Assembly (NCBI RefSeq): GCF_030209475.1
Contig: NZ_JARVRW010000004.1
Coordinates: 186,001-250,000, forward strand
DNA length: 64,000 nt
Direction: 5' to 3'
Origin: Microbacterium sp. lyk4-40-TSB-66
GTDB taxonomy: Bacteria; Actinomycetota; Actinomycetes; Actinomycetales; Microbacteriaceae
Notes under the pieces: generated by a model
What the model was told of the DNA's origin: nothing
Databases searched by the model: none
What the model saw: only the letters and a program-made list of their open reading frames with translations
Part shown: piece after piece, positions 1 to 64,000 of the stretch
Numbering within the stretch: position 1 is the first letter of the stretch
How the letters are laid out: each line of letters starts with the position of its first letter
Program-made: the position numbers and the translations under genes

Positions 1-56
1 CAGCCGCCCTCCGGTCGGCGCCCGGGCCGCACCGGGTGGTCAGGGAGCGGGCGAGG

Positions 57-617
57 TCATCCCGCCGCGCCGGACCGGCGTCGTTCGGCCGCGAGGTGAA
101 GTCGCTCGAGCTCGCCGGCGAACGCGTCGAACGGCCCGCGTGTGACGACCCCCGGAGCGACGTCGGAGATGGCGAGGGGGCGGATCGGCGAGGGGGCCGC
201 GCCCCACGAGGACCGCCATCGCGTCAGCTGCGCGGTCGAGCCGGCGAAGACGATGGGACCGAGTCCCGCCCACGCGTGAGCCGCGGCGCACATGGCGCAG
301 TGCTCGCCCGAGGTGTACACGGTCATCGACGACCGCTCGGCTGCCGGGTGATGCGCGACAGCCCACCGCACGAGGGCGATCTCCGGGTGCGCGGTGGGAT
401 CGCCGCCGCCGACGGTGTTGCGTTCTTCTCGGAGGACCCGCCCGTCACCGTCGACCAGGATCGATCCGAACGCGTCGTCACCGGCGTCCACCGCCTCCGC
501 CGCCAGTTCCACGCAGCGCTTCAGTGCGTCGATGTCGTCCACGGGTTCCTCTTCTCCGAATCGTGCCGCTGCGGGCGGGTCGGCCGCTCCTGCGTGCTGA
601 GTCCATCCTGTCGTCAT
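57..617 (-). CDS. Nucleoside/cytidine deaminase-fold protein
   Basis: A 186-residue protein of the zinc-dependent cytidine deaminase superfamily, which hydrolytically deaminates a base or nucleoside; the substrate cannot be read from sequence. The zinc site is visible as HPE (residues 77-79, His ligand plus proton-shuttling Glu) and HCAMC (Cys107 and Cys110). The usual PC before the second motif is replaced by EHC. The ATG at 617 is preferred because the frame upstream reads through shadow sequence; an earlier in-frame ATG would add about 12 residues. It is divergent from a second deaminase at 753, so the two may be functionally related paralogues. The last codons lie only 56 bases from the window edge, but the stop at 57-59 is present, so the gene is complete. 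Confidence 0.85.
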   Translation of the reverse strand: MTTGWTQHAGAADPPAAARFGEEEPVDDIDALKRCVELAAEAVDAGDDAFGSILVDGDGRVLREERNTVGGGDPTAHPEIALVRWAVAHHPAAERSSMTVYTSGEHCAMCAAAHAWAGLGPIVFAGSTAQLTRWRSSWGAAPSPIRPLAISDVAPGVVTRGPFDAFAGELERLHLAAERRRSGAAG

Positions 618-752
618 AGAGCCCACCCCGGGGGCTCGTGACTGCGACGGCATCGGCGCAGACGCGACGGGCGCGATCCGCCGGCGGTTAGCACATCCGC
701 GCGCCCCGAGGGGTTTTCGCGTCGATCGGACCGTCGTGATTACGGTGAAGCG

Positions 753-1226
753 ATGAACGATCAGGAGCTCACCGCCCTCACCATCTCTCTCGCGAGCGAG
801 AACGTCCGCAACGGCGGCAAGCCGTTCGCCTGTCTCATCGTGAAAGACGGCGAGATCATCGCCCAAGCCGTCAACCACGTCAGTCAGGACGGCGACCCGA
901 CGGCCCACGCCGAGATCCGGGCGATCCGCGCCGCCGCCGCGACGGGCGTCAGCGACCTCGGCGGGTACGACATGTTCGTCACCGCCTATCCCTGTCCGAT
1001 GTGTCTCGGCGCGGTCTACTACGCGCAGCCCGATCGCCTCGTCTACGCGGCGACGCGGGAGCAGGAGGGCGAGCACTACGAGGACGGCAATCGCCTCATG
1101 ACGCTTGCGACCTTCTACGACGAGTACGCCAAGCCGGTGGCGGAGCGCGCTCTCCCCACCGAGCAGGGGCAGGCCGACGATCCGACGGCACCGTTCCGCG
1201 AGTGGACCGCGATCCACGGCGACTGA
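753..1226 (+). CDS. Guanine/cytosine deaminase-like nucleoside deaminase
   Basis: A 157-residue member of the cytidine/deoxycytidylate deaminase family, close in layout to bacterial guanine deaminases and TadA-like enzymes. The zinc-binding HAE is at residues 52-54 and PCPMC at 80-84, both intact. Length is normal for the family (about 150-160). It probably deaminates a free purine or pyrimidine base in salvage or catabolism; assigning guanine rather than cytosine is not possible from motifs alone. A weak GGTGAAG ribosome site precedes the ATG. It is transcribed divergently from the deaminase at 57-617, with 135 bases between the starts, and is followed by a hairpin repeat at 1291. Confidence 0.85.
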   Translation: MNDQELTALTISLASENVRNGGKPFACLIVKDGEIIAQAVNHVSQDGDPTAHAEIRAIRAAAATGVSDLGGYDMFVTAYPCPMCLGAVYYAQPDRLVYAATREQEGEHYEDGNRLMTLATFYDEYAKPVAERALPTEQGQADDPTAPFREWTAIHGD

Positions 1227-1290
1227 CGCGTCGACACCGCGGCGGCGGCCCGGTGCACCGTCCCTCTCGACCGCAACCCGCCCCGATCAC

Positions 1291-1357
1291 GCATAAACGC
1301 CATCCGTGCGTATAAACGCGCTGTAGGCGTGTTTCCGCGCACGGATCGTGTTTATGC
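1291..1357. repeat. Intergenic hairpin repeat, copy 1
   Basis: An AT-richer imperfect hairpin between the deaminase and ku. GCATAAAC (1291-1298) pairs with GTTTATGC (1350-1357), ATCCGTGCG (1302-1310) pairs with CGCACGGAT (1338-1346), and ACGC (1316-1319) pairs with GCGT (1327-1330). Its right arm, ACGGATCGTGTTTATGCGTG, recurs exactly in the hairpin at 41277-41341. It could act as a terminator, but no T-run follows; a G-run does. Confidence 0.8.
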
Positions 1358-1472
1358 GTGGGGGGGGCGCCGGGTTCCTCGGGCATCGATCGGCTCGACC
1401 CCCGCGTGACGGCGTCCGTTCGCCCACGCAAGGGTCTCGGCATCCACCGTCGTTTCGGTGTTCACTGGACCC

Positions 1473-2324
1473 ATGCGATCGATCTGGAAGGGTGCCCTGA
1501 CGTTCGGCCTCGTCAACGTGCCCGTGAAGGTGTACTCGGCCACCGAGGATCACGACGTCTCCCTGCACCAGGTGCACAACAAGGACGGCGGACGTATCCG
1601 CTACCAGCGCATCTGCGAGGTCGACGGCGAGGTCGTGCCCTACGGCGACATCGATCGCGCCTACGACGACGGCGAGCAGACGGTGGTGCTGACCAAGGAC
1701 GACCTCGCGTCGCTGCCCAGCGAGCGCAGCCGTGAGATCGAGGTCGTCGAGTTCGTCCCCAGTGAGCAGGTCGACCTGCTCACCCTCGACAAGGCGTACT
1801 ACCTCGAGCCCGACTCCTCGTCGCCGAAGGCCTACGTGCTGCTGCGCAAGACGCTCGAGCAGACCGACCGCACCGCGATCGTCCGCTTCTCGCTGCGGCA
1901 GAAGACCCGGCTCGCCGCCCTCCGCGTGCGCGGGGACGTGCTCGTCCTGCAGACGTTGCTGTGGGCCGACGAGGTGCGCGAGGCGGCGTTCCCGGCGCTC
2001 GATGAGAGCGTGCGGATCTCGGCGAAGGAGCTGGAGATGTCGGCATCCCTCGTCGAGAGCTTCTCGAAGGACTTCGATCCCGAGGAGTTCACCGATGCCT
2101 ATCAGGCGGAGCTGCGCACCCTCATCGACGCCAAGCTCGAGCAGGGCGACGCGATCGACACGGATGCCACCTTCGGCACGCAGGAGGAGGACGACGGCGG
2201 CGAGGTCATCGACCTGATGGAAGCGCTCCGCGCGAGCGTCGAGCGCAGCCGCGCGGCGCGGGCCGAGAAGGACGCATCCGCGAAGAAGTCCCCGGCGAAG
2301 AAGAAGACCTCGAAGGCGTCGTAG
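1473..2324 (+). CDS. ku: Non-homologous end joining protein Ku
   Basis: Bacterial Ku, 283 residues, forms a homodimeric ring that threads broken DNA ends and recruits LigD for end joining. The N-terminus MRSIWKGALTFGLVNVPVKV is the family signature, and the Ku core runs through about residue 240. The tail is lysine-rich (AKKSPAKKKTSKAS), as in many actinobacterial Ku proteins where it helps DNA binding and sliding. The ATG at 1473 is chosen because it puts the family signature at residue 1; a GTG at 1458 would add five residues. No ligD is present in this window, so the partner must be encoded elsewhere. The gene is followed convergently by a DedA gene. Confidence 0.95.
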   Translation: MRSIWKGALTFGLVNVPVKVYSATEDHDVSLHQVHNKDGGRIRYQRICEVDGEVVPYGDIDRAYDDGEQTVVLTKDDLASLPSERSREIEVVEFVPSEQVDLLTLDKAYYLEPDSSSPKAYVLLRKTLEQTDRTAIVRFSLRQKTRLAALRVRGDVLVLQTLLWADEVREAAFPALDESVRISAKELEMSASLVESFSKDFDPEEFTDAYQAELRTLIDAKLEQGDAIDTDATFGTQEEDDGGEVIDLMEALRASVERSRAARAEKDASAKKSPAKKKTSKAS

Positions 2325-2343
2325 CCGTCGGGGAGACCCGCGT

Positions 2344-3108
2344 TCAGCGCGCGGGGTGGTCGCCGTCTTCGAGCGTCTTCGGGTCGAGCGTGAGGGCCTG
2401 GGCCTCGGCGTGGTTGATGGCGCCCTGACCGGCGGCGGCGTCGCGCTTGGCGGCGGCACGCTCGCGGAAGTAGTGGATGGCGATGAAGATCGCGGTCCCC
2501 GCGACGGCGGCGAGCAGGATGACGTCGATGTACTCCGTGACGATGTCGCGGACGAAGGGGATGTAGCCGACCGCGTACCCGAGCATCGTCAGACCGATAC
2601 CCCAGATGACGGCGCCGATGAAGTTGTAGAGCGTGTACTTGCGCCACGGCATGTGACCCACGCCCGCCGCGATGGGGGCGAAGGTGCGCACGACCGGGAC
2701 GAAGCGGGCCAGGATCACGGTGAGCCCGCCGAAGCGCTCGAAGAACGCGTTCGTGCGCTCGACGTTCTTCCTGCTGAAGATGCCCGACTCCTTGCGCTCG
2801 AAGATCGACGGCCCGGCTTTGTGACCGATGAAGTAGCCCACCTCACCGCCGATGAACGCGGCGAAGCCGATCGCGAGGGCGACCCACCAGGCGTTGAGTC
2901 CGAAGACGCCGTTGGGGGCCGCGGGCGTGGCGTGCGAAAGCAGGCCCGCCATGATCAGCAGCGTGTCGCCTGGGAGCAGGAAGCCGATGAGCAGCCCGGT
3001 CTCGGCGAAGATGATGAAGCACACCACCAGCAGAGCCCAGGGCTGCGAGTTCGTGATGATCGTCGCGGGGTCGAGCCACGGGAGCAGAGCGGCGGTGGTG
3101 TGGATCAC
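2344..3108 (-). CDS. DedA family membrane protein
   Basis: A 254-residue polytopic inner-membrane protein of the DedA/VTT (SNARE-associated) family. Some family members flip undecaprenyl phosphate or other lipids; the role here is not shown. Visible marks are the hydrophobic N-terminal segment followed by FAETGLLIGFLLPGDTLL, the re-entrant segment GGEVGYFIGHKAG, and the arginine motif LARFVPVVRTFAPIAAG, followed by two further hydrophobic stretches. The C-terminal 40 residues are polar and probably cytoplasmic. A GTG start at 3108 is used because an ATG two bases upstream is in another frame and stops at once. It is convergent with ku, with only 19 bases between the stops. Confidence 0.9.
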   Translation of the reverse strand: MIHTTAALLPWLDPATIITNSQPWALLVVCFIIFAETGLLIGFLLPGDTLLIMAGLLSHATPAAPNGVFGLNAWWVALAIGFAAFIGGEVGYFIGHKAGPSIFERKESGIFSRKNVERTNAFFERFGGLTVILARFVPVVRTFAPIAAGVGHMPWRKYTLYNFIGAVIWGIGLTMLGYAVGYIPFVRDIVTEYIDVILLAAVAGTAIFIAIHYFRERAAAKRDAAAGQGAINHAEAQALTLDPKTLEDGDHPAR

Positions 3109-3199
3109 ATCGGTCCCGTCGGATCGGAGAAGCGGTGCTGGGGGGAACGGCGAGGGCTACGCGGTGCTGCGGGACGTCGCCGGTGGAAGCGGCAGACCG

Positions 3200-3281
3200 T
3201 GCGGAAGGGGGGACTTGAACCCCCACGCCCGAAGGCACAGGAACCTAAATCCTGCGTGTCTGCCGATTTCACCACTCCCGC
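3200..3281 (-). tRNA. tRNA-Leu (anticodon TAG)
   Basis: An 82-nt leucine tRNA on the minus strand. The acceptor arm GCGGGAG pairs with CTTCCGC (one G-T), the anticodon stem-loop is CAGGA-TTTAGGT-TCCTG giving anticodon TAG (reads CUA/CUG), a short variable arm typical of class II tRNA is present (TGCCTTCGGGCG), and the T-arm is GGGGGTTCAAGTCCCCC. The 3' CCA is not encoded. It stands alone between the DedA and amidohydrolase genes, both on the same strand. Confidence 0.95.
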
Positions 3282-3332
3282 GAGTGGATTCAGTCTAAAC
3301 GGGCCGCACGCGCGCTCGATGTGAACGAGCCG

Positions 3333-4943
3333 TCAAAGAGCGAGCACCTCACCCGCCACCACCGTCGCCTTCGTCCGGGTCTCGTGGACGTCGGTGGCCG
3401 GACCGGCGAACGGATCGCGGTCGGCGATCGCGAGGTCGGCCGGCGCCCCCGGCGCGAGGGTGCCGGGGCCGACGCCGAGAAGCTCGGCGGAGCCGCGCGT
3501 GTACGCGTCCAGCGCGGTCCCGAGCTCGAGCGTCTGCGCGGCGCCGAGGGGTGCGGCATCCGCCTCTCCGGGCGGGCGGCGCGTCACCGCGACGTGGATG
3601 CCGAGCCACGGGTCGAAGGTGGAGACGGGCCAGTCCGACCCCATGGCCAGTGCGGCGCCGGCGGCACGCAGGGCCGCGAACGGGTAGAGATCGTCGGCGC
3701 GCTCTTCGCCGAGCAGGGGCAGGGTGACCTTGCGCACGAGGGCGTTGGTGCACGCCCAGTACGGCTGGCAGTTGGCGGTGACCCCCAGCGCGGCGAAGCG
3801 AGGGATGTCGTCGGGGCCGATGAGCTCGAGGTGGGCGATGTGGTTGCGCACGCCGGAGCGGTGCTCGGCCGGTACCGCGGCGAAGCCGTCGAGGGCGTCG
3901 TGCACCGCCGCATCTCCGAGGGCGTGCACGTGGACGGCGACACCGGCCGCGTTCAGCGCGGGCACCAGGTGCTGCACGAGCTCGGGCGCGAAGTACGACA
4001 GACCGTGCGACCCGTCGGGATAGGGGTGACACAGATGAGCGGTCCGCGTCTCCACGATTCCGTCCAGCATGAGCTTCGCCGTGCGCGTGGGGAAACCGGC
4101 CGCCGTGTTCGCGCGGGCTCGCTCGAGGCATTCGGCGACGAAGGCGTCGACCGTGTCCGCCGTGAGGTTCCGCGGCACCCAGATGGCGCCGGTCGCCCGC
4201 CCGGTCAGCGATCCGTCGCGCAGCAGCGAGAGGTAGGCGTGCGAGAAATCGGGGTAGCCGGCGTACTCTCCCAGCGCCGCCTCCTGCCAGCCGGTGATGC
4301 CGGCGGCCAGTGCCGACCGCGAGACGCTCAGCAGAGCCCGCGCGATGTCGGCGGTGTCGTGCGGGGGGACGTGCGGGGAGACCAGCTGCATGGCGCCCTC
4401 GCGCAACGCGCCGCTCGGTGCGCCGTCCACCGCCCGCTCGACCCGCCCGTCGGAAGGATCGGGGGTGGCGCGATCGATGCCCGCGGCGGCGAGGGCCGCC
4501 GAGTTCGCCCACCCGCCGTGGTGGTCGGCGTCGAGCAGGAATGCCGGCCGGTCGGGAACCAGCGCGTCCAGGTGGGCGGCGGTGGGGCCGGTGGGCGGGA
4601 AGAGCGTGGGGTCCCATCCTCCGCCCACCACCCAGGCGGCGGCGGAGCCGGAAGCGAAGGTGCGGATACGTTCGTCGATCTCATCGAGGGTCGCAGCTCC
4701 CGCCAGATCGCAGCGGAGGGAATCCACCGCACCTCCGCCCAGGTGGAGGTGCGCGTCGACGAATCCGGGGGTCACCAGCCCGCCGCGCGCGTCGAGCTCC
4801 TCGTCGACCCGACCCAGCGCGTCGCGCACCTCGCGGTGCGAACCGACGGCGACGATTCTGCCGTCGCGTATGCCCAGGGCGTCGGCGCCGAGAAGGGTTC
4901 CGGACGAGAAGAAGACGCCGTCGGCGACGAGGAGGCTGCTCAC
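3333..4943 (-). CDS. YtcJ-type amidohydrolase
   Basis: A 536-residue metal-dependent hydrolase of the amidohydrolase-3 family, a TIM barrel that hydrolyses amide or related C-N bonds of an unknown small molecule. Visible metal-site motifs are DAHLHLGG (His65, His67), HVHALGD around residue 337 and GSDWP around residue 435. The C-terminal composite beta domain ends with APADLAIADRDP, typical of the family. The GTG at 4943 is chosen because it starts right before LLVADGVFF, the usual first strand; the open frame extends well upstream but only as antisense to the next gene. Length is normal (about 530-560). No signal peptide is seen, so it is cytoplasmic. Confidence 0.9.
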   Translation of the reverse strand: MSSLLVADGVFFSSGTLLGADALGIRDGRIVAVGSHREVRDALGRVDEELDARGGLVTPGFVDAHLHLGGGAVDSLRCDLAGAATLDEIDERIRTFASGSAAAWVVGGGWDPTLFPPTGPTAAHLDALVPDRPAFLLDADHHGGWANSAALAAAGIDRATPDPSDGRVERAVDGAPSGALREGAMQLVSPHVPPHDTADIARALLSVSRSALAAGITGWQEAALGEYAGYPDFSHAYLSLLRDGSLTGRATGAIWVPRNLTADTVDAFVAECLERARANTAAGFPTRTAKLMLDGIVETRTAHLCHPYPDGSHGLSYFAPELVQHLVPALNAAGVAVHVHALGDAAVHDALDGFAAVPAEHRSGVRNHIAHLELIGPDDIPRFAALGVTANCQPYWACTNALVRKVTLPLLGEERADDLYPFAALRAAGAALAMGSDWPVSTFDPWLGIHVAVTRRPPGEADAAPLGAAQTLELGTALDAYTRGSAELLGVGPGTLAPGAPADLAIADRDPFAGPATDVHETRTKATVVAGEVLAL

Positions 4944-5016
4944 GGCTTCAGTGTGGCGGGGGCCCTCGCGACACGCCGAAGGGAATTCACGCGCGGCCCC
5001 CGGCGCTTCCTCCCGT

Positions 5017-6039
5017 ATGCAGGCGATCACGTACTCCCAGACCGGTGACTCCTCCGTCCTCTCGCTCGTCGAGCGTCCTCTGCCCGAGCCGGGCCCCGGC
5101 GAGGTGCGGGTGCGCATCGCCGTGTCGGGGGTGAACCCGACCGACTGGAAGGCACGACAGGGCGGCCGGCCCTTCTCCTGGGACGAGGTGACGCCCGACC
5201 AGGACGGAGCGGGGATCGTGGATGCCGTCGGCGACGGCGTCGACAGCCCGTCCACCGGTCAGCGGGTGTGGGTCTACCTCGCCCAGCACGAGCGTCCCAC
5301 CGGCACCGCCGCCGAGTACGCCGTCATCCCCGCCGCACGCGCGGTCCCGCTCGCCGACGGGGCCTCCTTCGCCCTCGGGGCGAGCCTCGGCGTCCCGGCC
5401 ATGACCGCCCACCGCGCCCTTACCGTGCACGAGAACGGTCCCGCGCGACTCGCCCCCGGCGCGCTCGATGGACGCACGGTCCTCGTGCAAGGTGGCGCCG
5501 GGGCGGTCGGCCACGCCGCCATCCAGCTCGCCGTATGGGCCGGCGCGACGGTGATCGCGACCGTCAGCAGCGACGAGAAGGAGGCCCTGGCCCGAGCGGC
5601 CGGCGCCCACCACGTGCTGCAGTACCCGAGCGACGCGCTGGCCGACGGCATCCGCGAGCTCGCACCGGACGGTGTCGACCACATCGTCGAGGTCGCCATC
5701 GCCCACAACGCCGCCCTCGACGTCGAGGTGATCGCCAACCACGGCTCGATCGGCTACTACGCCGACAACGGCGGTGACCGATTCAGCGCCGCGGTGCGGG
5801 CCAGCTTCGCCAAGAACGTCCGCTGGCAGGGACTGCTGCTGTACACCGTGGGCGAAGACGCGCTCGCCGCCGCCGCGGAAGACGTATCGGCTGCCGTCGC
5901 CGACGGAGCACTGCCGGTCGGAGACGACGCCGGGCTGCCGCTGACGTGGTTCCCCCTGGCCGACACCGCCGCCGCGCACGACGCCGTTGCGAACGGTGCG
6001 ACGGGCAAGGTGCTCATCCGCGTGAGCGACGCCGAGTAA
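5017..6039 (+). CDS. Quinone oxidoreductase-like NADPH dehydrogenase (MDR family)
   Basis: A 340-residue medium-chain dehydrogenase/reductase of the zeta-crystallin/quinone oxidoreductase type, which reduces quinones or activated alkenes with NADPH. The GroES-like N-domain carries SGVNPTDWKARQG, and the Rossmann fold carries VLVQGGAGAVGHAAIQLA, the usual AxxGxxG-type nucleotide loop. The cysteine/histidine ligands for catalytic zinc of true alcohol dehydrogenases are absent. The ATG at 5017 begins the canonical first strand MQAITY; the frame is open far upstream only as a shadow of the amidohydrolase. It is transcribed divergently from the amidohydrolase (74 bases apart) and ends before a bidirectional terminator. 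Confidence 0.9.
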   Translation: MQAITYSQTGDSSVLSLVERPLPEPGPGEVRVRIAVSGVNPTDWKARQGGRPFSWDEVTPDQDGAGIVDAVGDGVDSPSTGQRVWVYLAQHERPTGTAAEYAVIPAARAVPLADGASFALGASLGVPAMTAHRALTVHENGPARLAPGALDGRTVLVQGGAGAVGHAAIQLAVWAGATVIATVSSDEKEALARAAGAHHVLQYPSDALADGIRELAPDGVDHIVEVAIAHNAALDVEVIANHGSIGYYADNGGDRFSAAVRASFAKNVRWQGLLLYTVGEDALAAAAEDVSAAVADGALPVGDDAGLPLTWFPLADTAAAHDAVANGATGKVLIRVSDAE

Positions 6040-6052
6040 CCGCTGCACACGA

Positions 6053-6091
6053 AACCGCCGGGGCCGCGCGTGATGCGCGACCCCGGCGGTT
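6053..6091. terminator. Bidirectional terminator hairpin
   Basis: AACCGCCGGGG (6053-6063) pairs perfectly with CCCCGGCGGTT (6081-6091), and the loop itself contains GCGC/GCGC complementarity. It lies between the convergent ends of the reductase (6039) and the M28 peptidase (6120), so it can serve both. Confidence 0.8.
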
Positions 6092-9391: not shown

Positions 9392-9393
9392 GA

Positions 9394-10536: not shown

Positions 10537-10571
10537 CCCTGTGGATGCCGAGGAGACCGGCATCCACAGGG
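10537..10571. terminator. Rho-independent terminator after prfB, built from an inverted GGATGCC pair
   Basis: CCCTGTGGATGCCG (10537-10550) pairs perfectly over 14 bp with CGGCATCCACAGGG (10558-10571) across a 7-base loop, followed by TTCTCTCGTTT. The stem contains one GGATGCC and one GGCATCC. Confidence 0.9.
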
Positions 10572-14015: not shown

Positions 14016-14382
14016 GGGGCTGATCGGTTTCGACAGCGCCTGCGAACCCGCGAGAAGCGGGCCGAGGATGTGGGGTTATCTCGTAAACGCTCCCTGCAAA
14101 ACAATAAGTGCCGATGCTAAGCGCACTGACTTCGCCCTCGCTGCGTAAGCGAGCCCGATAGTCCGTCAGACCGTGTGTGACCCCGCCACGGAATCTGGCG
14201 TCATTTAGGGGTCTTGCTGTGTGACGGCGTCTGGACGTCACGCGGGACTTTTCCCAGGCTGGGCTCGTCGACTTAGGTGTCTGTGACAAAGGTCGGAGCC
14301 GAGCAGAACGTCTGCACAGACTGCGCCCGGAGAAAACGCGGAGACCCAGCGTTGGACGGGGGTTCGATTCCCCCCAGCTCCA
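14016..14382 (+). ncRNA. ssrA: tmRNA (transfer-messenger RNA)
   Basis: A 367-nt tmRNA. The 5' end GGGGCTG pairs with CAGCTCC at the 3' end (one G-T), followed by discriminator A. The T-arm is GGGGGTTCGATTCCCCC, and the 3' CCA is not encoded. The tag reading frame is 14110-14148 and gives ADAKRTDFALAA then TAA; the resume codon is GCC after AAACAATAAGT, the same context as other actinobacterial tmRNAs. The tag ends ALAA, the usual ClpXP/ClpAP degron. It partners with SmpB, encoded upstream. Confidence 0.98.
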
Positions 14383-14408
14383 CGAGCCGTTGTCACGAAG
14401 AGTTGCAC

Positions 14409-16980: not shown

Positions 16981-17056
16981 GCACCTCTAGCTCAATCGGC
17001 AGAGCAACTGACTCTTAATCAGTGGGTTCTGGGTTCAAGTCCCAGGGGGTGCACCA
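16981..17056 (+). tRNA. tRNA-Lys (anticodon CTT)
   Basis: GCACCTC pairs with GGGGTGC; the anticodon loop CTCTTAA is enclosed by ACTGA/TCAGT and gives CTT (reads AAG). The T-arm is CTGGGTTCAAGTCCCAG. The discriminator A at 17053 is followed by an encoded CCA (17054-17056). Confidence 0.97.
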
Positions 17057-25371: not shown

Positions 25372-25403
25372 CGGATGCCGCGACCTCGGGGTCGCGGCAT
25401 CCG
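25372..25403. terminator. Bidirectional terminator built from an inverted GGATGCC pair
   Basis: CGGATGCCGCGACC (25372-25385) pairs perfectly over 14 bp with GGTCGCGGCATCCG (25390-25403) around TCGG. It lies between the convergent thiolase and the small membrane gene. Confidence 0.88.
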
Positions 25404-38898: not shown

Positions 38899-39948
38899 AT
38901 GTCGCGTGTCGTGAAGTTGGCCGTCATCCCCGGTGACGGAATCGGTCCCGAGGTCGTCGCCGAGGCGGTGAAGGTCCTCGACGCGGTCACCGCTGGCTCG
39001 GAGGTCGCGTTCGAGAAGACGTCGTTCTCCCTGGGGGCCGGTCGATACCTCGACACCGGCGACACCCTCACCGACGACGACCTGGCCGCGATCGCCTCGC
39101 ACGACGCCATCCTGCTCGGCGCTGTCGGGGGAGTCCCCGGCGACCCCCGTCTGGCCGACGCCAACATCGAACGCGGCCTGCTGCTCAAACTCCGCTTCGA
39201 ACTCGACCACTACGTCAACCTGCGCCCGTCGAAGCTGTACCCGGGCGCGGCGGGGCCCCTCGCCGACCCGGGCGACATCGACTTCGTGGTCGTTCGCGAG
39301 GGCACCGAGGGCCCGTACGTCGGCAACGGCGGCGCCATCCGCCGGGGCACGCCGCACGAGATCGCGAACGAGACATCGGTCAACACCGCCTACGGCGTCG
39401 AGCGCGTCGTCCGCTACGCCTTCGCCCTGGCGGAGCGTCGCCGCCACAAGCTCACGCTCGTGCACAAGACGAACGTGCTCGTGCACTCAGGCAGCATGTG
39501 GAAGCGGATCGTGGATGCCGTGGCATCCGAGTTCCCGGGGGTCGACGTAGACTACCTCCACGTCGACGCGGCAACCATCTTCCTGGTCACGAACCCGGGC
39601 CGATTCGACGTGATCGTCACCGACAACCTCTTCGGCGACATCTTGACCGACCTGGCCGGCGCCGTCACCGGAGGCATCGGCCTCGCCGCATCGGGCAACA
39701 TCAACCCCGACGGCGCGTTCCCCTCGATGTTCGAGCCCGTCCACGGATCGGCGCCCGACATCGCGGGTACCCAGAAGGCCGACCCCACGGCCGCGATCCT
39801 CTCCGTCGCCCTCCTGCTCGATCACCTCGGGCTCACCGACGAAGCCGCCCGCGTCACCCGCGCGGTTGAGAACGACATCGCGAGCCGCGACGGCGCGCGC
39901 ACCACCGCCGAGATCGGCGACGCCATCGTCGGGGGAGTCCAGGCGTAA
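38899..39948 (+). CDS. leuB: 3-isopropylmalate dehydrogenase
   Basis: A 349-residue NAD-dependent oxidative decarboxylase of leucine synthesis. Family motifs are [20 protein letters not shown] at the N-terminus, [14 protein letters not shown] and the metal-binding [20 protein letters not shown] (about residues 238-257), and [12 protein letters not shown] near 280. The compact length matches actinobacterial LeuB. GGAGGAGA precedes the ATG. It is followed by ilvE after 55 bases. Confidence 0.97.
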
Positions 39949-43969: not shown

Positions 43970-45061
43970 TCAGATGGAGTAGCTCAGCGAGGCGGAGGCG
44001 GGCGCGGGCGCGGCGATGGAAGCGGCACCGAGCGCGGCGAGCGCCCGATCCACGTCGCCGTCGTCGTTGAACACGTGGAACGCCACCCGCGCTCGACCCG
44101 CTCGGCCCGACGCCGTGATGCCCCGGGCCGTCAGCCGTGCCAGCGCCTCACCCGTGGCATCCGGCCACGTGACGATCGCCGACGCTCGCGCGGGCTGAGC
44201 GAGGCCGAGCCCCGCACGGAAGCGGGCTGCGAGGCCCGTCGCATGGGCGTGCAGGTCGGTGATGTCGGCGTCGGCGAACAATCCGAGCGCGGGGGCGGCG
44301 CCGACGAAGGCCTGCCACGCCGGTGAGACGTCGAAGCGGCGGGCGTCCGGGGCGAGAGTGCCCCCGGTGCCGTAGCACGACGACCAGGGATCGTCGCCCG
44401 CGTACCACCCCGCCTGCACGGGACGCAGCGTCGCGGCGAAGGACGGGTTCACGGTCAGGAAGCCGACGCCGCGCGGGCAGCACAGCCACTTGTACGCGTG
44501 GCAGACGGTCGCATCGAACAGTGTGGCGTCGACCGGCAGCCAGCCCGCCGCCTGGGTGAGGTCGCACAGCGTGCGGGCGCCTGCGCGGGTCGCCGCGGCG
44601 GCGATGCCGGCGGCATCCGCCACCTCTCCCGTCGCCGACTGCACGAGAGAGAACGCCACGAGCGCGGTGCCGCTCGTCACGGCGTCGGCGAGCTCAGCGA
44701 GCGGTGCCGTGCGTAGGCGGATGCCACGACCGGCGTGTGCGAACGGCGCGACGAGCGACGAGAAGTCACCCTCGGGGCAGAGCACCTCGGCGCCATCGGG
44801 GAGGGAGGCGGCGATGAGGGACACCATCACCGAGGTCTGCGACGCGATGGCGACGTCGCCGACGGGGGAATGGACCAGACGCGCGTAGGCCGAGCGGGCG
44901 TCTTCGACGGCGCGCGACGCCGCGGCGATGTCCGGGCGACCGGATGCCGCGGCATCCAGGTCGGCGCGGACGGCGTGAACGGTCGCGCGCGGGGGGAGGC
45001 CGAGCGTGCACGCGGCGAGGTAATCGCGGCCGCCGGTGAAGTGCGATGCGAGGGTGGTCAT
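43970..45061 (-). CDS. Class V aminotransferase-like PLP enzyme
   Basis: A 363-residue fold-type I PLP enzyme of the class V group (kynureninase, cysteine desulphurase, isopenicillin N epimerase). The cofactor lysine is in CHAYKWLCCPRGVGFL, preceded by the Asp of TLCDLTQAAGWLPVD. The substrate cannot be assigned. ATG at 45061. It is divergent from a LysR regulator with 80 bases between, a typical regulator-target pair. Confidence 0.88.
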   Translation of the reverse strand: MTTLASHFTGGRDYLAACTLGLPPRATVHAVRADLDAAASGRPDIAAASRAVEDARSAYARLVHSPVGDVAIASQTSVMVSLIAASLPDGAEVLCPEGDFSSLVAPFAHAGRGIRLRTAPLAELADAVTSGTALVAFSLVQSATGEVADAAGIAAAATRAGARTLCDLTQAAGWLPVDATLFDATVCHAYKWLCCPRGVGFLTVNPSFAATLRPVQAGWYAGDDPWSSCYGTGGTLAPDARRFDVSPAWQAFVGAAPALGLFADADITDLHAHATGLAARFRAGLGLAQPARASAIVTWPDATGEALARLTARGITASGRAGRARVAFHVFNDDGDVDRALAALGAASIAAPAPASASLSYSI

Positions 45062-48098: not shown

Positions 48099-48173
48099 TG
48101 GGGTATGGTGTAATTGGCAACACGGCGGTTTCTGGTTCCGTTGTTCTTGGTTCGAGTCCAGGTACCCCAGCCA
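48099..48173 (+). tRNA. tRNA-Gln (anticodon CTG)
   Basis: TGGGGTA pairs with TACCCCA, the anticodon loop TTCTGGT gives CTG (reads CAG), the T-arm is CTTGGTTCGAGTCCAGG, and G plus CCA are encoded (48170-48173). The last anticodon-stem pair is a T-T mismatch, which is tolerated in glutamine tRNAs. Confidence 0.95.
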
Positions 48174-49060: not shown

Positions 49061-49351
49061 CCGTGGCTGCCGGCGGCGGCTTCACGGCCGTCGGGTTCCG
49101 TGCGGCGCTCCGCCTCCGCGACCGGGGACGCCGCCCGGGACGCCCGTGGCATCCCGTCGACGCGCTTCCGCCGCGGTGGCTCACGCTCGTTCGCTGCGTG
49201 CAACCGGCTCGCCGCCGCCGGCGGCTCGTTCACGCGCCTCCGCTTCCGCGGCGCACTCGACCTCGCTCCGTGCGACTCCGGATGCCGTTGGGCGTCGAAG
49301 CTCACGGCATCCGGTCGACGTGCGTCCCTTCGACGTGGGACGCAACCGCGC

Positions 49352-58474: not shown

Positions 58475-58547
58475 TCCGTCGCGCGCAGTCTCGGGTCGCC
58501 GACACCGTCGGCCCATCCCGGGGTCGCGACGGGGCGACAATGGACTC

Positions 58548-58757
58548 ATGGGACTCTTCGTACAGCGACCGGAGGAACCGAGTGAGTGGGCGGGCCTGCC
58601 GGGTGAGCCTGCGCGGCCGCAGACGAAAGCCGAGCTGCTGCCCGACGACGATCGTCCGGTCGCGTCACCGACCGGTCTGCTCGGGCTCTCCGAAGACTCG
58701 ACGACCTCGATCGCGATTCCGCTGGGCGACTCCGCGGGGGCGTCCAGCGGCGACTGA
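58548..58757 (+). CDS. Hypothetical 69-residue acidic protein
   Basis: Short, acidic and Pro/Ser-rich (EEPSEWAGLPGEPARPQTKAE; GLLGLSEDSTTSIAIPLGDS, each quoted by position), with no predicted membrane segment. Family unknown; similar small proteins are common in this group of bacteria (general impression only). GACAATGG at 58536 may be a -10. It is independent of the iron operon. Confidence 0.55.
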   Translation: MGLFVQRPEEPSEWAGLPGEPARPQTKAELLPDDDRPVASPTGLLGLSEDSTTSIAIPLGDSAGASSGD

Positions 58758-58835
58758 GCACGGGGGAGCGGACGACACGGCTCCACCTCCGCGCGGTCGA
58801 CACGCGCCGGGATAGCATCCCGGAAGGAGGTCCTC

Positions 58836-59255
58836 GTGAAGCGCATCAGCATCGTCGTCCTGGCCGCGGCCCTGCCGCTGCTGATCGCCGGCTGCACGCC
58901 GACGGCACCCGAGGACGCATCGACGTCCGATCCCGCGGCGTCGATCGCTCCGTCGCCCTCCGGGATGGACCAGATGCTGCCGCCGACCACCGTCGCACCC
59001 GCCGATCTCGAGGGAACCGACGTCCGCGTGATCCGGGGCACATCGCTCGTGCTCGCCGTCCCCGAGGGCACCGAGGCGGAGTGGAGCGGGACCACCGCCG
59101 ATGTCGCCGTCGCGGAGTTCTCCGCCGGGGGGCCGTCGGAGGGTGCCGTCTTCCGCCCCGGCTTCATCGTGCGCGAGGTGGGGAGTACCGCGGCCACCGT
59201 CACGGGTCCCGACGGCGCCACGGTCTCGTTCACGATCACGGTCTCCGAGTACTGA
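58836..59255 (+). CDS. Small lipoprotein
   Basis: A 139-residue lipoprotein. The signal peptide KRISIVVLAAALPLLIAGC has its lipobox cysteine at residue 20, followed by a Ser/Thr/Pro tether and a beta-rich domain of about 80 residues (GTSLVLAVPEGTEAEWSG; GATVSFTITVSEY). A strong GGAAGGAGGT site lies six bases before the GTG at 58836. Function unknown. It is followed by 332 bases without a gene. Confidence 0.75.
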   Translation: MKRISIVVLAAALPLLIAGCTPTAPEDASTSDPAASIAPSPSGMDQMLPPTTVAPADLEGTDVRVIRGTSLVLAVPEGTEAEWSGTTADVAVAEFSAGGPSEGAVFRPGFIVREVGSTAATVTGPDGATVSFTITVSEY

Positions 59256-59587
59256 TCGCCGCCGCGGCGTCCCGAAGGACGGCGCGGTCATCCCTCGGGG
59301 CGGTGAGGTGATGACTTTCACTGCGCGCGTCCTTGGCGTGCGTTGCCGTCGGCGGGAATGCGGACTCGATTCGCGGATGCCGGGTCCTCCGCCGGCGTAC
59401 ACGGCGTCGGTGCACCCGGTGACCCGCCGAACGCTGAGGTGGCCGCCGCGGTCGCGTCGTCGGACGGTCGACCGCGCCGCTTGAGCGAAGCGAGGAGCGC
59501 CTTTCGGCAGCCGTACACGATCTTCGAGAAACTGTTGCTCTGTGTGGTTTCGTGTTGTATCGTGTGGGAATCTTCGAAGGGGATCCC
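59256..59587. other. Non-coding upstream region of the fructose operon
   Basis: No gene is seen. Near its end, three TGTGT/CGTGT half-sites start at 59541, 59551 and 59561, exactly one DNA turn apart, flanked by TCTTCGA at 59521 and 59571. This is a likely binding site for the DeoR-type regulator encoded next. Confidence 0.5.
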
Positions 59588-60370
59588 GTGTACGCAATGG
59601 AGCGCCAGCAGCTCATCGAGCGCGAACTGCGAGACGTCGGACGCGTCAGCGTCGTCGACCTCGCCCGTCGCTTCGACGTCACGACCGAGACCGTTCGTCG
59701 CGACCTCGACCGCCTCGAGGGGACCGGCTCGTTGCGCCGCGTCCACGGCGGTGCGGTGAGCACCGATCGGGCGAGCACCGCCGAGTCCACCCTCACCGAG
59801 CGTCGCGACCGTCAGGGCGAAGCCAAGCGCGCGATCGCCGCCGAAGCCGCGAGCCTGCTCGGCTCGTCTTTCCGCGGCTCGATCTTCGTCGACGGCGGCA
59901 CCACTCCCGCCGCCGTGGCGGCCATGCTCCCCGAGACACTCGGGACGGGCGGTGGCGTCGAGGTCGTGACGCACTCCCTCGAGGCGGCTCACCTGCTGGC
60001 GGGGGAGGAGCAGTTCTCGCTCACCACCATCGGCGGGCGCGTGCGCGGCGTCACCGCGGCCGCGGTCGGTGCGCACACCGTTCGCGCGATCTCTCAGCTG
60101 CGCCCCGACATCGCCTTCGTCGGAACCAACGGACTCAGTGCCGGCTTCGGCCTCAGCACGCCCGACCCGGAGGAGGCGGCCGTGAAGGCCGCGATCATCC
60201 AGTCGGCACGTCGCGTCGTGCTCGTCGCCGACGCGGCCAAATTCGGAGAGGAACTGCTCGTGCGCTTCGCCCGACTCGACGAGATAGACGTGCTCGTCAC
60301 CGACGCGGCCCCGCCCGCACCGCTCGCGGAGGCCCTCGCCGACGCCGACGTCGAGGTGCGTGTCGCATGA
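59588..60370 (+). CDS. DeoR family transcriptional regulator (FruR-like)
   Basis: A 260-residue repressor. The N-terminal HTH is VSVVDLARRFDVTTETVRRDL (recognition helix about residues 32-42), and the C-terminal sugar-phosphate-sensing domain runs from about 75 with DGGTTPAAVAAMLP and FVGTNGLSAGFGLSTPD, the DeoR effector fold. It is the first gene of a fructose PTS operon and probably responds to fructose 1-phosphate. The GTG at 59588 has GAAGGGG five bases upstream; ATG at 59597 is an alternative. It overlaps fruK by 4 bases. Confidence 0.9.
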   Translation: MYAMERQQLIERELRDVGRVSVVDLARRFDVTTETVRRDLDRLEGTGSLRRVHGGAVSTDRASTAESTLTERRDRQGEAKRAIAAEAASLLGSSFRGSIFVDGGTTPAAVAAMLPETLGTGGGVEVVTHSLEAAHLLAGEEQFSLTTIGGRVRGVTAAAVGAHTVRAISQLRPDIAFVGTNGLSAGFGLSTPDPEEAAVKAAIIQSARRVVLVADAAKFGEELLVRFARLDEIDVLVTDAAPPAPLAEALADADVEVRVA

Positions 60371-61332
60371 TCGTCACCGTCACCGCCAACCCGTCGGCCG
60401 ATCGCGCCGTCGTGCTCTCCGACGCCCTCGCCCCCGGCGAGGTGCAGCGCGCCCTGTCGTCTCGCGAGGACGCGGGCGGCAAGGGAGTCAACGTCGCCCG
60501 TGTCGTGTCCGCCGCGGGCGCTCCGGCGCGTGCCGTCGTACCCGTGAACGCGCACGATCCGTACCGGATGCTGCTGGAAGACACCGGCATCGCCCTCGAG
60601 ACCGTCGAGGTCGCCGGCCGTGCGCGCGCCAACCTCACCATCACCGATCCGACGGGTGAAACCACCAAGCTGAATCTGCCCGGCGCCGAGCTGACGGCCG
60701 TCGAGGCCGAAGCGCTCGTCGCCGGAGTGGTGGCCGCCGCCGAGGGAGCCACCTGGCTCGTGCTCGCCGGTTCGCTGCCTCCCGGGGTTCCGGCGACGTT
60801 CTACGCCGATCTCGTCGGCGCGGTCCGCGCGCGCTGGGGGGCCGATGCGCCCCGTATCGCTGTCGATGCGTCGGGCGCCGCCCTCGCCGCGGTCGTCGAG
60901 ACCGCTCGTCCCGACCTCATCAAGCCCAACCACGAAGAACTCGCCGAACTCGTGGGCGAGGATGCCGCGTCCGACACCGACGTGCTCGCCGAAGCCGCTC
61001 GGCGCGCCCGTGCCCTGGTGCCGGGCCGTGTGGCATCCGCTCTCGTCACCCTCGGAGCCGACGGCGCCCTGTTGTTCACGGCCGACGGCGACTGGCGCGG
61101 ACGCGCCCCACGGATCCAGGTCGCCAGCACCGTCGGCGCGGGCGACAGCTCGCTCGCCGGCTACCTACTGGCCGACCTCGAGGGGGCCACGGCCCCCGAC
61201 CGCCTCGCGCGCAGCATCGCCTACGGCGCCGCTGCCGCGACCCTGCCGGGGACGCAGGCCCCGACACCCGACGACCTGCCTACGGCACCCATCGTCGTCA
61301 CCGACTTCGCCACCCCCATCGCTACATCCTGA
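60367..61332 (+). CDS. fruK: 1-phosphofructokinase
   Basis: A 321-residue PfkB-family sugar kinase that phosphorylates fructose 1-phosphate to fructose 1,6-bisphosphate. N-terminal VTVTANPSADRAVVLSD, the GGKGVNVARVV substrate motif (about residues 39-49), and GAGDSSLAGY with catalytic Asp260 are intact. It overlaps the regulator by 4 bases and is followed by the fructose permease. The pathway uses the product of the PTS transporter next to it. Confidence 0.95.
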   Translation: MIVTVTANPSADRAVVLSDALAPGEVQRALSSREDAGGKGVNVARVVSAAGAPARAVVPVNAHDPYRMLLEDTGIALETVEVAGRARANLTITDPTGETTKLNLPGAELTAVEAEALVAGVVAAAEGATWLVLAGSLPPGVPATFYADLVGAVRARWGADAPRIAVDASGAALAAVVETARPDLIKPNHEELAELVGEDAASDTDVLAEAARRARALVPGRVASALVTLGADGALLFTADGDWRGRAPRIQVASTVGAGDSSLAGYLLADLEGATAPDRLARSIAYGAAAATLPGTQAPTPDDLPTAPIVVTDFATPIATS

Positions 61333-61351
61333 CCACGGAGGTCATCGACAC

Positions 61352-63409
61352 ATGTCCGACATCATCACGCCGGAGCTCGTCTCACTCGACGCGCCCCTGG
61401 GCACCGACAAGCAGTCGGTGATCCGTGCCCTCGCCGAGCGCGTCGTCGCGCAGGGCCGCGCGACGAGCGCACAAGAACTGTTCGACGACGCCTGGGCCCG
61501 CGAGCAGAAAGACGAGACCGGCCTGCCCGGCGGCATCGGCATCCCCCACGCGCGCAGCGCCTCGGTCACCGAGCCCACCCTCGCCTTCGCGCGCCTGACC
61601 CCGGGCGTCGACTTCGGCGCTCCGGACGGACCCGCCGACATCGTGTTCCTCATCGCGGCCCCCTCGGGTGCCGACGAGGCCCACCTGTCGGTCCTGTCGC
61701 AGCTCGCGCGCAGCCTCATGAAGAACGACTTCATGTCGGGCCTACGTGCCGCGCAGGCGCCCGAAGACGCGGTGCGCATCATCACGGATGCCGTCACTCC
61801 GGCGTCCGAGTCCGCCCCGGCTGCCGCCGCCCCCGCGGCTGCTGCCGCCGCCGCGCCCGCCGCCACCCGCGCCGACGCGCGCACCGCCACCAAGACGAAG
61901 AAGATCGTCGCCGTCACGGCCTGCGCCACCGGCATCGCCCACACCTTCATGGCCGCCGACGCGCTCACCGCCGCCGGTGCCGAAGCCGACGGCGTCGAGC
62001 TGATCGTGGAGCCCCAGGGCTCGAGCGGCTACAAGGCCCTTCCCCAGAGCGTCATCGATGACGCCGACGCCGTCATCTTCGCGGTCGACGTCGACGTGCG
62101 CGAACCGCAGCGCTTCGCCGGCAAGCCGGTCGTCCGCTCCGGCGTCAAGCGCGGCATCGAGCAGCCGAAGCAGCTCATCGCCGAGGCCCTCGCGGCCAGC
62201 GAGAACCCGAACGCCGCGCGCGTTCCGGGCAGCGGCGCCGCGGCATCCGCGTCCGACGTGCCGGTCGCCCAGCAGTCGGTGGGTCGCCGCATCCAGCGTT
62301 GGCTGCTGACCGGTGTCAGCTACATGATCCCGTTCGTTGCCGGTGGCGGCCTCCTCATCGCCCTCGGGTTCCTCCTCGCCGGTTACCAGGTGACCGCCGA
62401 CGCGGCCAATGTGATCATCCAGAACTCCCTCTGGGATCTGCCGGAGGGTGGGCTCGGGCAGTACCTCGGCTCGGTCGCGTTCATGATCGGTGCGACGTCG
62501 ATGGGCTTCCTCGTCGCCGTTCTCGCGGGCTTCATCGCCTACGCGATCGCCGACCGCCCCGGCATCGCGCCCGGTTTCGTCGCCGGTGCCGTCGCCGTGC
62601 TCATGAACGCCGGCTTCATCGGCGGCATCATCGGCGGTCTGCTCGCCGGATTCATCGCCTGGTGGCTCGGTCGCTTCAACGCTCCCCGCTGGCTCCGTGG
62701 CCTCATGCCGGTCGTCATCGTTCCCTTCCTCGGCTCGATCTTCGCTTCCGGCCTGATGATCCTGTTCCTCGGTCGACCCATCGCCGCCCTGATGACGGTT
62801 CTCACCGACGGCTTGACCTCGCTCGCCGCCAGCGGCGCCGGCGCCGTCCTGCTCGGAGTGATCCTGGGCCTCATGATGTGCTTCGACCTCGGTGGCCCCG
62901 TCAACAAGGTCGCCTACGTCTTCGCCACGACCGGTCTGGCCGCCGCGACGACGACCAACACCGCGCCGTACCTGATCATGGCCGCGGTCATGGCCGCCGG
63001 TATGGTGCCCCCGCTCGCGATGGCCCTCGCCTCCACGGTCCTCTCGCGCGGTCGGTTCACCCCGGTCGAGCGTGAGAACGGTGCGGCCGCCTGGCTGCTG
63101 GGTGCCTCGTTCATCTCCGAGGGTGCGATCCCGTTCGCCGCGGCCGACCCGCTGCGCGTCATCCCCGCCTCGATGGTGGGCGGTGCGATCACCGGTGGAT
63201 TGAGCATGCTGATCGGCGTGCAGTCCTACGCACCTCACGGCGGCATCTTCGTGCTGTTCGCCATCAACCCGGTGTGGGGTTTCCCGCTGGCGATCATTGT
63301 GGGTACGGTCGTGACGGCGCTCATCGTCGTCGCCCTCAAGGGCATCGGTCGCACGCCGAAGGACGCCGCCGTCGCCGAGACCGCTCCCGCGGCCACGGTC
63401 GCAGCCTAA
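61352..63409 (+). CDS. fruA: Fructose-specific PTS enzyme IIABC
   Basis: A 685-residue three-domain transporter that imports and phosphorylates fructose at C1. The IIA domain (1-150) has the phospho-His66 in GIGIPHARS; an Ala-rich linker follows (about 155-180); IIB has phospho-Cys191 in TACATGIAHT; IIC (about 310-660) has the membrane helices and family motifs (VAGGGLLIALGF; GGPVNKVAYVF; SFISEGAIPF). Domain order IIA-IIB-IIC matches actinobacterial FruA. ATG at 61352, with GGAGG upstream. It receives phosphate from the HPr encoded next. Confidence 0.97.
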   Translation: MSDIITPELVSLDAPLGTDKQSVIRALAERVVAQGRATSAQELFDDAWAREQKDETGLPGGIGIPHARSASVTEPTLAFARLTPGVDFGAPDGPADIVFLIAAPSGADEAHLSVLSQLARSLMKNDFMSGLRAAQAPEDAVRIITDAVTPASESAPAAAAPAAAAAAAPAATRADARTATKTKKIVAVTACATGIAHTFMAADALTAAGAEADGVELIVEPQGSSGYKALPQSVIDDADAVIFAVDVDVREPQRFAGKPVVRSGVKRGIEQPKQLIAEALAASENPNAARVPGSGAAASASDVPVAQQSVGRRIQRWLLTGVSYMIPFVAGGGLLIALGFLLAGYQVTADAANVIIQNSLWDLPEGGLGQYLGSVAFMIGATSMGFLVAVLAGFIAYAIADRPGIAPGFVAGAVAVLMNAGFIGGIIGGLLAGFIAWWLGRFNAPRWLRGLMPVVIVPFLGSIFASGLMILFLGRPIAALMTVLTDGLTSLAASGAGAVLLGVILGLMMCFDLGGPVNKVAYVFATTGLAAATTTNTAPYLIMAAVMAAGMVPPLAMALASTVLSRGRFTPVERENGAAAWLLGASFISEGAIPFAAADPLRVIPASMVGGAITGGLSMLIGVQSYAPHGGIFVLFAINPVWGFPLAIIVGTVVTALIVVALKGIGRTPKDAAVAETAPAATVAA

Positions 63410-63437
63410 GACCCCCGTCGAATCGAGAGGATTCACC

Positions 63438-63707
63438 ATGGCAGAACGTCAGGCCACCATCGCCAGCAGCTCGGGACTCCACGCCCGCCCCGCGAAGCTC
63501 TTCGTGCAGGCCGTGCAGGAGAAGAAGATCCCCGTCACGATCTCGGCCGACGGCGGTGCCGACCTCAACGCCGGCAGCATCCTGTCGCTCATGGGTCTCG
63601 GCGCCGGCCACGGCACGGTCGTGACGCTCAAGGCCGAGGGTGAGGGTGCCGAGCAGGCGCTCGACGAGCTCGTCGCCCTTCTCGAGACCGACCTCGACGC
63701 GCAGTAA
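63438..63707 (+). CDS. ptsH: Phosphocarrier protein HPr
   Basis: An 89-residue HPr, the general PTS phosphocarrier. The active His15 is in SGLHARPA, and Ser47 in NAGSILSLMGL is the position phosphorylated by HPr kinase in firmicutes (actinobacteria usually lack that kinase). Being in the fructose operon, it probably serves both FruA and other PTS systems. A perfect terminator follows. Confidence 0.97.
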   Translation: MAERQATIASSSGLHARPAKLFVQAVQEKKIPVTISADGGADLNAGSILSLMGLGAGHGTVVTLKAEGEGAEQALDELVALLETDLDAQ

Positions 63708-63722
63708 GCACGTCGTCCGAGA

Positions 63723-63770
63723 ACACCGGATGCCACGGGCCCCAGGGCTCGTGGCATCCGGTGTTTCTGC
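63723..63770 (+). terminator. Terminator after ptsH, built from an inverted GGATGCC pair
   Basis: ACACCGGATGCCACG (63723-63737) pairs perfectly over 15 bp with CGTGGCATCCGGTGT (63750-63764), followed by TTCTGC. The stem contains GGATGCC and GGCATCC. Confidence 0.9.
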
Positions 63771-63800
63771 GTGGGCGTGTGACGGTGTGCGTGCCCCGGA

Positions 63801-64000
63801 TCAGACGTCGACGGTGTCGCCGGGCTTGAGGTCGACGAACGAGCCGCCGTTCTGCTCCACCGCCCAGGTCAAGCGCGCGTCGCCCATCTGCTTGCCGGCG
63901 ACCGACAGCGTCATGTCGTGCGTGGCGAAGACGCGCTCGGGCTTGACCGCGAGCACATAGTCGATCGCGTCGCCGATCTTCAGCCAGGGGGCGCCGACCG
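63801..64000 (-). CDS. MBL-fold metallo-hydrolase, C-terminal fragment
   Basis: A minus-strand coding end with its stop at 63801-63803; the start is beyond the window. The visible 66 residues read VGAPWLKIGDAIDYVLAVKP, then FATHDMTLSVAG, and end GGSFVDLKPGDTVDV. This matches the C-terminal metallo-beta-lactamase-fold region of UlaG/YtnP-like hydrolases (the THD is a metal-ligand histidine). Function beyond the fold is not assignable. Confidence 0.8.
   Translation of the reverse strand, partial: VGAPWLKIGDAIDYVLAVKPERVFATHDMTLSVAGKQMGDARLTWAVEQNGGSFVDLKPGDTVDV

Follow-up and report, generated by a model that had tools for sequence, protein, structure and literature searches.

A dispersed heptamer exceeds its codon-based expectation

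We analyzed a 64,000-nucleotide stretch of the Microbacterium sp. lyk4-40-TSB-66 genome (contig NZ_JARVRW010000004.1, positions 186,001 to 250,000; hereafter the window), in which predicted genes lie alongside tRNA genes, a tmRNA gene and many copies of the heptamer GGATGCC on both strands. A sequence-only reading of the window had described GGATGCC as a dispersed word, about sixfold over-represented, and as a DNA-uptake-like or genome-signature motif. Counting upheld the over-representation: 56 copies lie on the forward strand, exactly as first given, and 48 rather than about 43 are present as the complement GGCATCC, so that the total of 104 exceeds the zero-order expectation of 15.2 by 6.9-fold. 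A fifth-order Markov model predicted 75 copies; this expectation is high because the six-letter parts of GGATGCC are themselves enriched, and a codon-aware null is therefore the fair one. The whole genome (3,570,227 bases in 18 contigs) carries 5,878 copies, about one per 600 bases, and the near-equal strand counts reported for the window held in its totals (2,918:2,960). The same letters read backwards occur 383 times.

Open reading frames (ORFs) were called with a home-made codon-model finder, for which reason gene borders are approximate, and cover 87% of the window. For the null, synonymous codons were shuffled inside each gene over 414,710 bases of this genome. Coding sequence in this sample held 658 copies of GGATGCC versus 174.5 (standard deviation 9.4; maximum 198 over 60 shuffles), a 3.8-fold excess, and intergenic sequence held 81 versus 11.9. 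The coding excess was present in all six frame-and-strand positions (GAT GCC, 283 versus 44.5; GCA TCC, 154 versus 5.8; GGC ATC C, 173 versus 111.6; the three rarer frames were also in excess). With 20 synonymous shuffles, GGATGCC ranked first (z 36.1) among 4,618 scored heptamers, and GGATGCCG and GGATGCCA ranked first and third among octamers. Neither codon usage nor a general abundance of heptamers accounts for the count, and the description of GGATGCC as a genome-signature motif is strongly supported. A short word in hundreds to thousands of copies, well in excess of a codon-aware null, is also a mark of DNA uptake sequences (DUS) and uptake signal sequences (USS). The override of codon choice that had been proposed is also evident: GAT fills 147/176 motif slots, as opposed to 14–21% in other contexts (653/4,620 in the largest), and GCA fills 86/109, as opposed to 5–24% (508/10,994 in the largest).

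All eight letters of GGATGCCR are enforced

The base following GGATGCC is G or A at 704 of 740 sites, and at 79 of 80 intergenic sites. The word in this genome is thus GGATGCCR (R, purine), one letter longer than the heptamer first described; GGATGCCR is 14.5-fold over composition and GGATGCCY (Y, pyrimidine) 0.7-fold. In a genome of another genus (G283; G, L, C and g numbers are our handles for genomes, loci, contigs and genera), both forms are high, at 8.3- and 5.8-fold, and the demand for a purine therefore differs between lineages.

Enforcement was measured letter by letter in 537 ORFs, as the frequency of the completing base where a motif letter falls on a codon wobble position and the other seven letters are present. 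Across the 15 frame-position classes with at least eight cases, the completing base was used in 72–100% of slots, against codon expectations down to 0.05 (T4 in one reverse frame, 193/241 versus 0.05). Odds ratios were 3.7 to 67 in 14 of these classes and 1.7 in the remaining one, for which the expectation was already 0.98. Between genes, GGATGCCR occurred 99 times versus 7.9, about 12.6-fold, and its one-letter variants were at 0.3- to 3.2-fold. Every one of the eight letters is enforced, whatever the frame or strand, and also in intergenic sequence. As the source of such a word, a directed bias of mutation or repair, as in very-short-patch repair, is scarcely credible, and so is plain codon-pair use. 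The commonest slots do vary at T4, where a C to T change would suffice, but enforcement of all eight positions in all these settings rules out a bias at a single position, and the synonymous shuffles (174.5 versus 658) together with the frame analysis rule out codon, codon-pair or dipeptide usage.

The word is conserved between species

IlvC of this genome is 95–96% identical to that of M. testaceum StLB037 and of two other Microbacterium records. Wobble-base conservation was compared in 181 orthologue pairs with G339, the closest relative in this comparison, 163 with G023 and 143 with G340, equal context class being demanded on both sides. Motif-slot GAT was kept in 87/93, 65/71 and 48/53 cases, respectively, versus 218/414, 89/333 and 98/289 in unrelated contexts; motif-slot GCA was kept in 55/57, 31/34 and 29/33, versus 93/317, 40/248 and 37/221. 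The small intermediate context classes vary, two of them being fully kept in the comparison with G339 (GAT followed by GCC and a pyrimidine, 2/2; GCA preceded by RG, 4/4). There are gains as well: at GAT slots whose marker base is missing from the relative, this genome has it in 6/14, 6/9 and 5/9 cases, versus 7.5–10.5% in unrelated contexts. In a smaller conservation test over 20 kb, the closest locus had given a trend in the same direction, which weakened in more distant ones. The word is therefore conserved between species.

Sister words around a GGAT core replace it in some relatives

Whole-genome counts of GGATGCC and CGGATCC were taken in the same 249 genomes. The density of GGATGCC ranged from about 7,400 in G114 and G283 to 229 in G108, with 812 in G220, which belongs to Microbacterium itself. 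The count that covered this genome gave 1,273 to 6,796 copies in 34 other genomes of the genus and 541 to 2,007 in 23 genomes from other families of the order; among those 23, the highest raw counts outside the family (1,853 and 2,007) belong to G039 and G057, members of one genus in another family. In G108 (L119–L122), GGATGCC stood at 3 versus 8.8 by codon shuffle, and this genome is also without the strong form of the methylase family PF01555 and without a TadE match.

Sister words that share the GGAT core replace GGATGCC in some related genera and in some Microbacterium. Against the codon null, G220 carries CGGATCC at 451 versus 96.9 (z 35.9) and GGATGCC at 41 versus 74; CGGATCC is likewise raised in M. 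nanhaiense and M. suaedae (65 versus 11.1) and in G091 (56 versus 9.0). The corresponding words are CGGATGGC in G031 (125 versus 35.8), AGGATCC in G061 (29 versus 4.0) and GGATGCG in VKM Ac-2855 (25 versus 3.9) and Schumannella (35 versus 7.8). Because AGGATCC is also raised in G220 (111 versus 36.6), it may be a flank variant of GGATCC. By the same null, no GGAT word was found in the 33–252 kb examined of G071, G073, G090, G092, G102, G107, G088, G108, pooled Leucobacter and Arthrobacter. These dialects are the new part of the finding.

The whole-genome counts of CGGATCC are graded, not split. They reach 6,303 in G220 and 5,752, 6,237, 5,503 and 5,986 in G091, G165, G222 and G273 of one other genus (g56), where GGATGCC numbers only 854–934; this genome has 860, G207 has 2,871 in 1.9 Mb, and G061 (2,222) and G241 (2,115) are intermediate. 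In G182 both words are high (6,046 GGATGCC and 4,111 CGGATCC), possibly a dialect switch in progress. When the wobble test was run with each genome's own word, nearly all letters were enforced in G220, G031 and G283, and more patchily in G091 (40 kb); with the wrong word there was practically no enforcement.

A broader survey scored 99 units, namely 80 named loci (4.8–21 kb, some outside the family) and 19 genomes, a call requiring z of at least 4 and a twofold excess. It returned 25 calls of GGATGCC, eight of CGGATCC, four of GGATGCG, one each of GGATGGC and AGGATCC, two of GCCGATGC and 58 of none, many of the last owing to the small size of a 21-kb locus; GGATGCC was raised about twofold in several Microbacterium loci among them. 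Three loci (L012, L016 and L052) fall below 8 kb, and the masked or tiny L106, L114 and L115 were left out. The calls for Leucobacter L031 (z 4.9), L025 (z 4.3), Pseudoclavibacter L039 (z 5.3), L026 (z 6–8) and Clavibacter (z 6–8) rest on 21 kb each. On an ilvC tree, a single-gene tree built by a quick method, the words cluster (22 changes versus a shuffled mean of 29.3, with 0/200 shuffles as low), and CGGATCC requires at least four changes.

Words of other kinds were seen farther away. Demequina, of another family (L058, L064, L066, L067, L072 and L078), has its own word, GCCGATGC/GCATCGGC, at 69 versus 20.2 pooled and strongest in L058 and L078. Nocardioides L074 and L089 carry CGGCGTAC/GTACGCCG at 27 versus 5.5, perhaps a further such word in a different order.

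Six phages show no clear enrichment of the word

In six Microbacterium phages, GGATGCC occurred 94 times versus 56.5 by composition, 50 of them followed by a purine, and these 50 copies of GGATGCCR compare with about 40 by codon shuffle, which is no clear enrichment. Franklin22, a phage of M. testaceum and the sole one tested whose host is known here to bear the word, has 5 versus 3.7–4.3. The five M. foliorum phages sum to 45 versus about 36, the word of M. foliorum not being established here. Plasmids of Microbacteriaceae, on which mobile DNA could also be tested, were not among the matches listed.

All seven phages examined for CGGATCC (L129–L135: Franklin22, Vitas, Slay, Celaena, Bernstein, FlameThrower and Olliecat) strongly avoid it, with 4 copies where composition predicts about 66 and codon shuffling of the ORFs about 49.

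Facing pairs lie near predicted gene ends and orientation shows no polarity

The spacing of GGATGCCR is near random (one per 624 bases, gap variation 0.94). Over 569,410 bases, facing pairs at a start-to-start distance of 9 numbered 9 versus 0.37 expected. Ten of the 14 close intergenic pairs are facing; each of the ten folds strongly (−24.5 to −45.0 kcal/mol) no more than 50 nucleotides from a predicted gene end, and together they make up 20 of the about 99 intergenic sites. The inverted pairs at gene ends are likely terminators. The three inverted pairs that the sequence-only reading had called terminators are present, 18–24 nucleotides past a predicted stop, and the window holds a fourth that it had not listed (Table 1).

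Table 1 Features of the window, with positions counted from its first letter
Feature	Position	Strand	Detail
GGATGCC copies	1..64000	both strands	104 (56 +, 48 -), 97 = GGATGCCR
Inverted pair GGATGCC...GGCATCC, hairpin, likely terminator	10543..10565	+	-36.9 kcal/mol, 24 nt after predicted + gene stop
Inverted pair, hairpin, likely terminator	25373..25402	.	-38.3 kcal/mol, between convergent predicted genes
Inverted pair, newly listed	49280..49312	.	-36.5 kcal/mol, between convergent predicted genes
Inverted pair, hairpin, likely terminator	63728..63759	.	-45.0 kcal/mol, between convergent predicted genes
16-base inverted pair GGATGCC-NN-GGCATCC in coding sequence	39513..39528	.	start-to-start distance 9
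16-base inverted pair GGATGCC-NN-GGCATCC in coding sequence	44942..44957	.	start-to-start distance 9
tmRNA gene	14016-14385		
tRNA gene	16981-17053		
tRNA gene	48099-48170		
tRNA gene	3200-3281		

Polarity was assessed by strand totals in this genome, which is in 18 contigs, and along the complete chromosome of G283. No replication polarity was found on the latter (343:374; chi-square 12.2 over 22 stretches, p 0.95). This even orientation bears out the initial argument against a polar motif and rules out polar words of the Chi, KOPS (FtsK-orienting polar sequence) or AIMS (architecture-imparting sequence) type. A Chi-like signal that would halt a recombination nuclease of the AdnAB or AddAB type on self DNA seems to us quite improbable. 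Chi sites are short, frequent and different between species, and the absence of enrichment in Franklin22 would also suit such a signal; against it stand the lack of strand polarity and the facing intergenic pairs, which have no place in a Chi model. RecC (PF04257) was found in none of 48 genomes, a search that did not extend to AdnAB or AddAB, and its absence rules out RecBCD Chi.

Competence-type machinery is present but does not track the word

The genome carries a comEA-comEC locus (L236). A tad-type cluster next to a topoisomerase gene (L256) encodes T2SSE and T2SSF together with a small DUF4244 protein and TadE; by eye, the DUF4244 protein looks like an Flp pilin. The co-occurrence of com and tad genes with the word, which had been suggested as a check, was therefore found here, but the same families occur in word-poor relatives. 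ComEC is present in 30/30 genomes and T2SSE ATPases in 48/48, word-rich and word-poor alike. TadE, for which the model is short and weak, matched in 31/38 genomes; the seven without a match are the word-bearing G008, G064 and G061 together with G108, G177, G092 and G070. By presence or absence, ComEC, T2SSE and TadE thus fail to separate word-rich from word-poor genomes.

Two methylase families, PF01555 and PF02086, were examined as candidate readers. It is very unlikely, in our estimate, that a methylation-dependent function maintains the word as the recognition site of a conserved DNA methyltransferase. PF01555 matches in 40/40 genomes, strongly (E below 1e-34) in 37 and more weakly (about 1e-22 to 1e-24) in G108, G177 and G025, and the weaker match in G108, a genome without a GGAT word, would agree with such a role. 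However, the C-terminal 200 residues, which should include the recognition part, are 75–98% identical to those of this genome in 14 other genomes, whatever their word and also where none was found (15 genomes including this one; locus L254, one of 16, gave no ORF and was dropped, and G025 and G177 were not scored for a word of their own). This is too conserved for a reader of different dialects. The D12 methylase family (PF02086) matches in only 10/40 genomes and without a pattern.

The lone conserved PF01555 methylase (L240–L253, L255) lies beside a 350-residue gene starting HGEYKVPGGKLVVVDLE in 8/8 Microbacterium loci.

GGATGCCR as a candidate DNA uptake sequence

We put at about an even chance that GGATGCCR is a genome-wide recognition word serving as a DNA uptake sequence, that is, a self tag that favours DNA from kin. 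The case is built on its copy number, its occurrence on both strands, whole-word enforcement, the facing pairs at gene ends, the GGAT dialects, a genome with two dialects and genera without a word, which together much resemble the DUS of Neisseriaceae, and on the part that tad genes play in transformation of Micrococcus luteus. In such a system, the reader would be an envelope protein belonging to the ComEA/ComEC and tad-type pilus machinery, and the competence pilus would thereby prefer DNA of close relatives. DNA bearing the word would enter and recombine more often, and repeated transformation would turn near-miss sites into full words by molecular drive. If the specificity of the reader shifted, the whole genome would slowly follow, giving rise to dialects, and inverted pairs would double as 3′-end hairpins. 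More tentatively, Microbacteriaceae may mark their DNA with uptake words particular to species groups. This would be a full DUS system that arose independently of those in Neisseriaceae and Pasteurellaceae, with at least five dialects around GGAT, in single-membrane cells; a tad-type pilus would read the words, and groups with different dialects would be sexually isolated from one another within one family. Among the matches listed in the open-licence literature, no paper deals with this word or links uptake sequences with Microbacteriaceae or Microbacterium, which speaks neither for nor against this idea.

The original label "DNA-uptake-like" stands in part. Seven resemblances to uptake words speak for it (density, presence on both strands, coding location, enforcement of the whole word, pairing as terminators, a set of dialects in one family and the presence of competence genes), as does the exclusion of RecBCD Chi and polar motifs; relatives in which the word is scarce or absent have competence-type genes just as often. 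That the machinery does not track the word is one of several points that weigh against an uptake role. The others are that genes without orthologues in the three relatives fill 29/44 slots, only slightly below 122/160; that same-direction pairs within 60 bases are scarcer than expected (12 and 8 versus 19.4 each); that the near-identical M. foliorum phages Vitas and Bernstein have the highest phage counts (GGATGCCR, 13 versus about 9); and that CGGATCC of G220 is near the palindrome GGATCC, with first-letter odds of only ×1.6, a form that DUS seldom take and that hints at a reader acting as a dimer.

The main rival, which we consider unlikely, is an intracellular reader, whether a protein that organises the chromosome or some other DNA-binding protein; the word would then be a signature like HIP1, kept by weak selection without a role in uptake. 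Density, occurrence on both strands and coding location would fit any genome-wide binding word; the similar slot filling in genes with and without orthologues points the same way, and the excess of 16-base inverted pairs at distance 9 would suit a dimer. Words of housekeeping chromosome proteins, however, are usually stable across families, whereas this word changes within one genus and several relatives have no GGAT word in the stretches examined.

An uptake role would place GGATGCCR beside known systems. The DUS of Neisseriaceae have ComP as their receptor. They are short words in thousands of copies, with dialects around a conserved CTG core, and the S. muelleri genome holds two dialects at once (PMC3630211). 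The parallels are a core kept across the dialects (GGAT in place of CTG), a dialect that differs by a single-base insertion (wadDUS there, GGATGCC relative to GGATCC here), a two-dialect genome (here G182) and some genera without an obvious word (PMC3630211). Unlike the Neisseriaceae words, those described here belong to Gram-positive Actinobacteria, are 7–8 rather than 10–12 bp long and include one near-palindromic dialect. The USS of Pasteurellaceae likewise are over-represented words with hundreds to thousands of copies. They differ in being an unrelated word of Gram-negative bacteria. USS also occur on both strands and as terminator pairs, as here, but are taken up by a type IV pilus route. 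HIP1 (GCGATCGC) of cyanobacteria is dispersed within and between genes and has no settled function; it is a perfect palindrome, whereas GGATGCCR is not self-complementary, although the GGATCC core of G220 is. We know of no dialect family of the GGAT-word kind for HIP1.

In Micrococcus luteus, of the same order, natural transformation depends on an Flp/tad pilus (PMC4322843), and tad-type and com genes are also found in this genome. The terms "uptake sequence" and "sequence-specific" are absent from that paper (PMC4322843). In the 99-unit scoring, loci of Arthrobacter, Pseudarthrobacter and Kocuria, from the family of M. luteus, gave no word call. We know of uptake words with dialects in no more than two families, both of them Gram-negative.

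If the uptake reading is correct, Microbacteriaceae would add a Gram-positive family to these two, with natural changes of dialect within a single genus. The long-debated reason for uptake words, a preference in mating or merely the side effect of a receptor bias, could then be examined by comparison. Efforts to transform relatives of Microbacterium would gain a simple guide, namely to equip the DNA with the matching word, and the word might also help to flag foreign islands. The uptake reading predicts a gain in transformation with GGATGCCG only, not with GGATGCCC or scrambled words. Even without a pilus reader, enforcement of the word at thousands of positions and its replacement from one close relative to another would point to an unknown sequence reader under strong coevolution.

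Finally, contigs C10 and C11 of this genome (L107:1 and L108:1) open with homopolymers, a stretch of C and one of more than 50 G, that have the look of sequencing artefacts.

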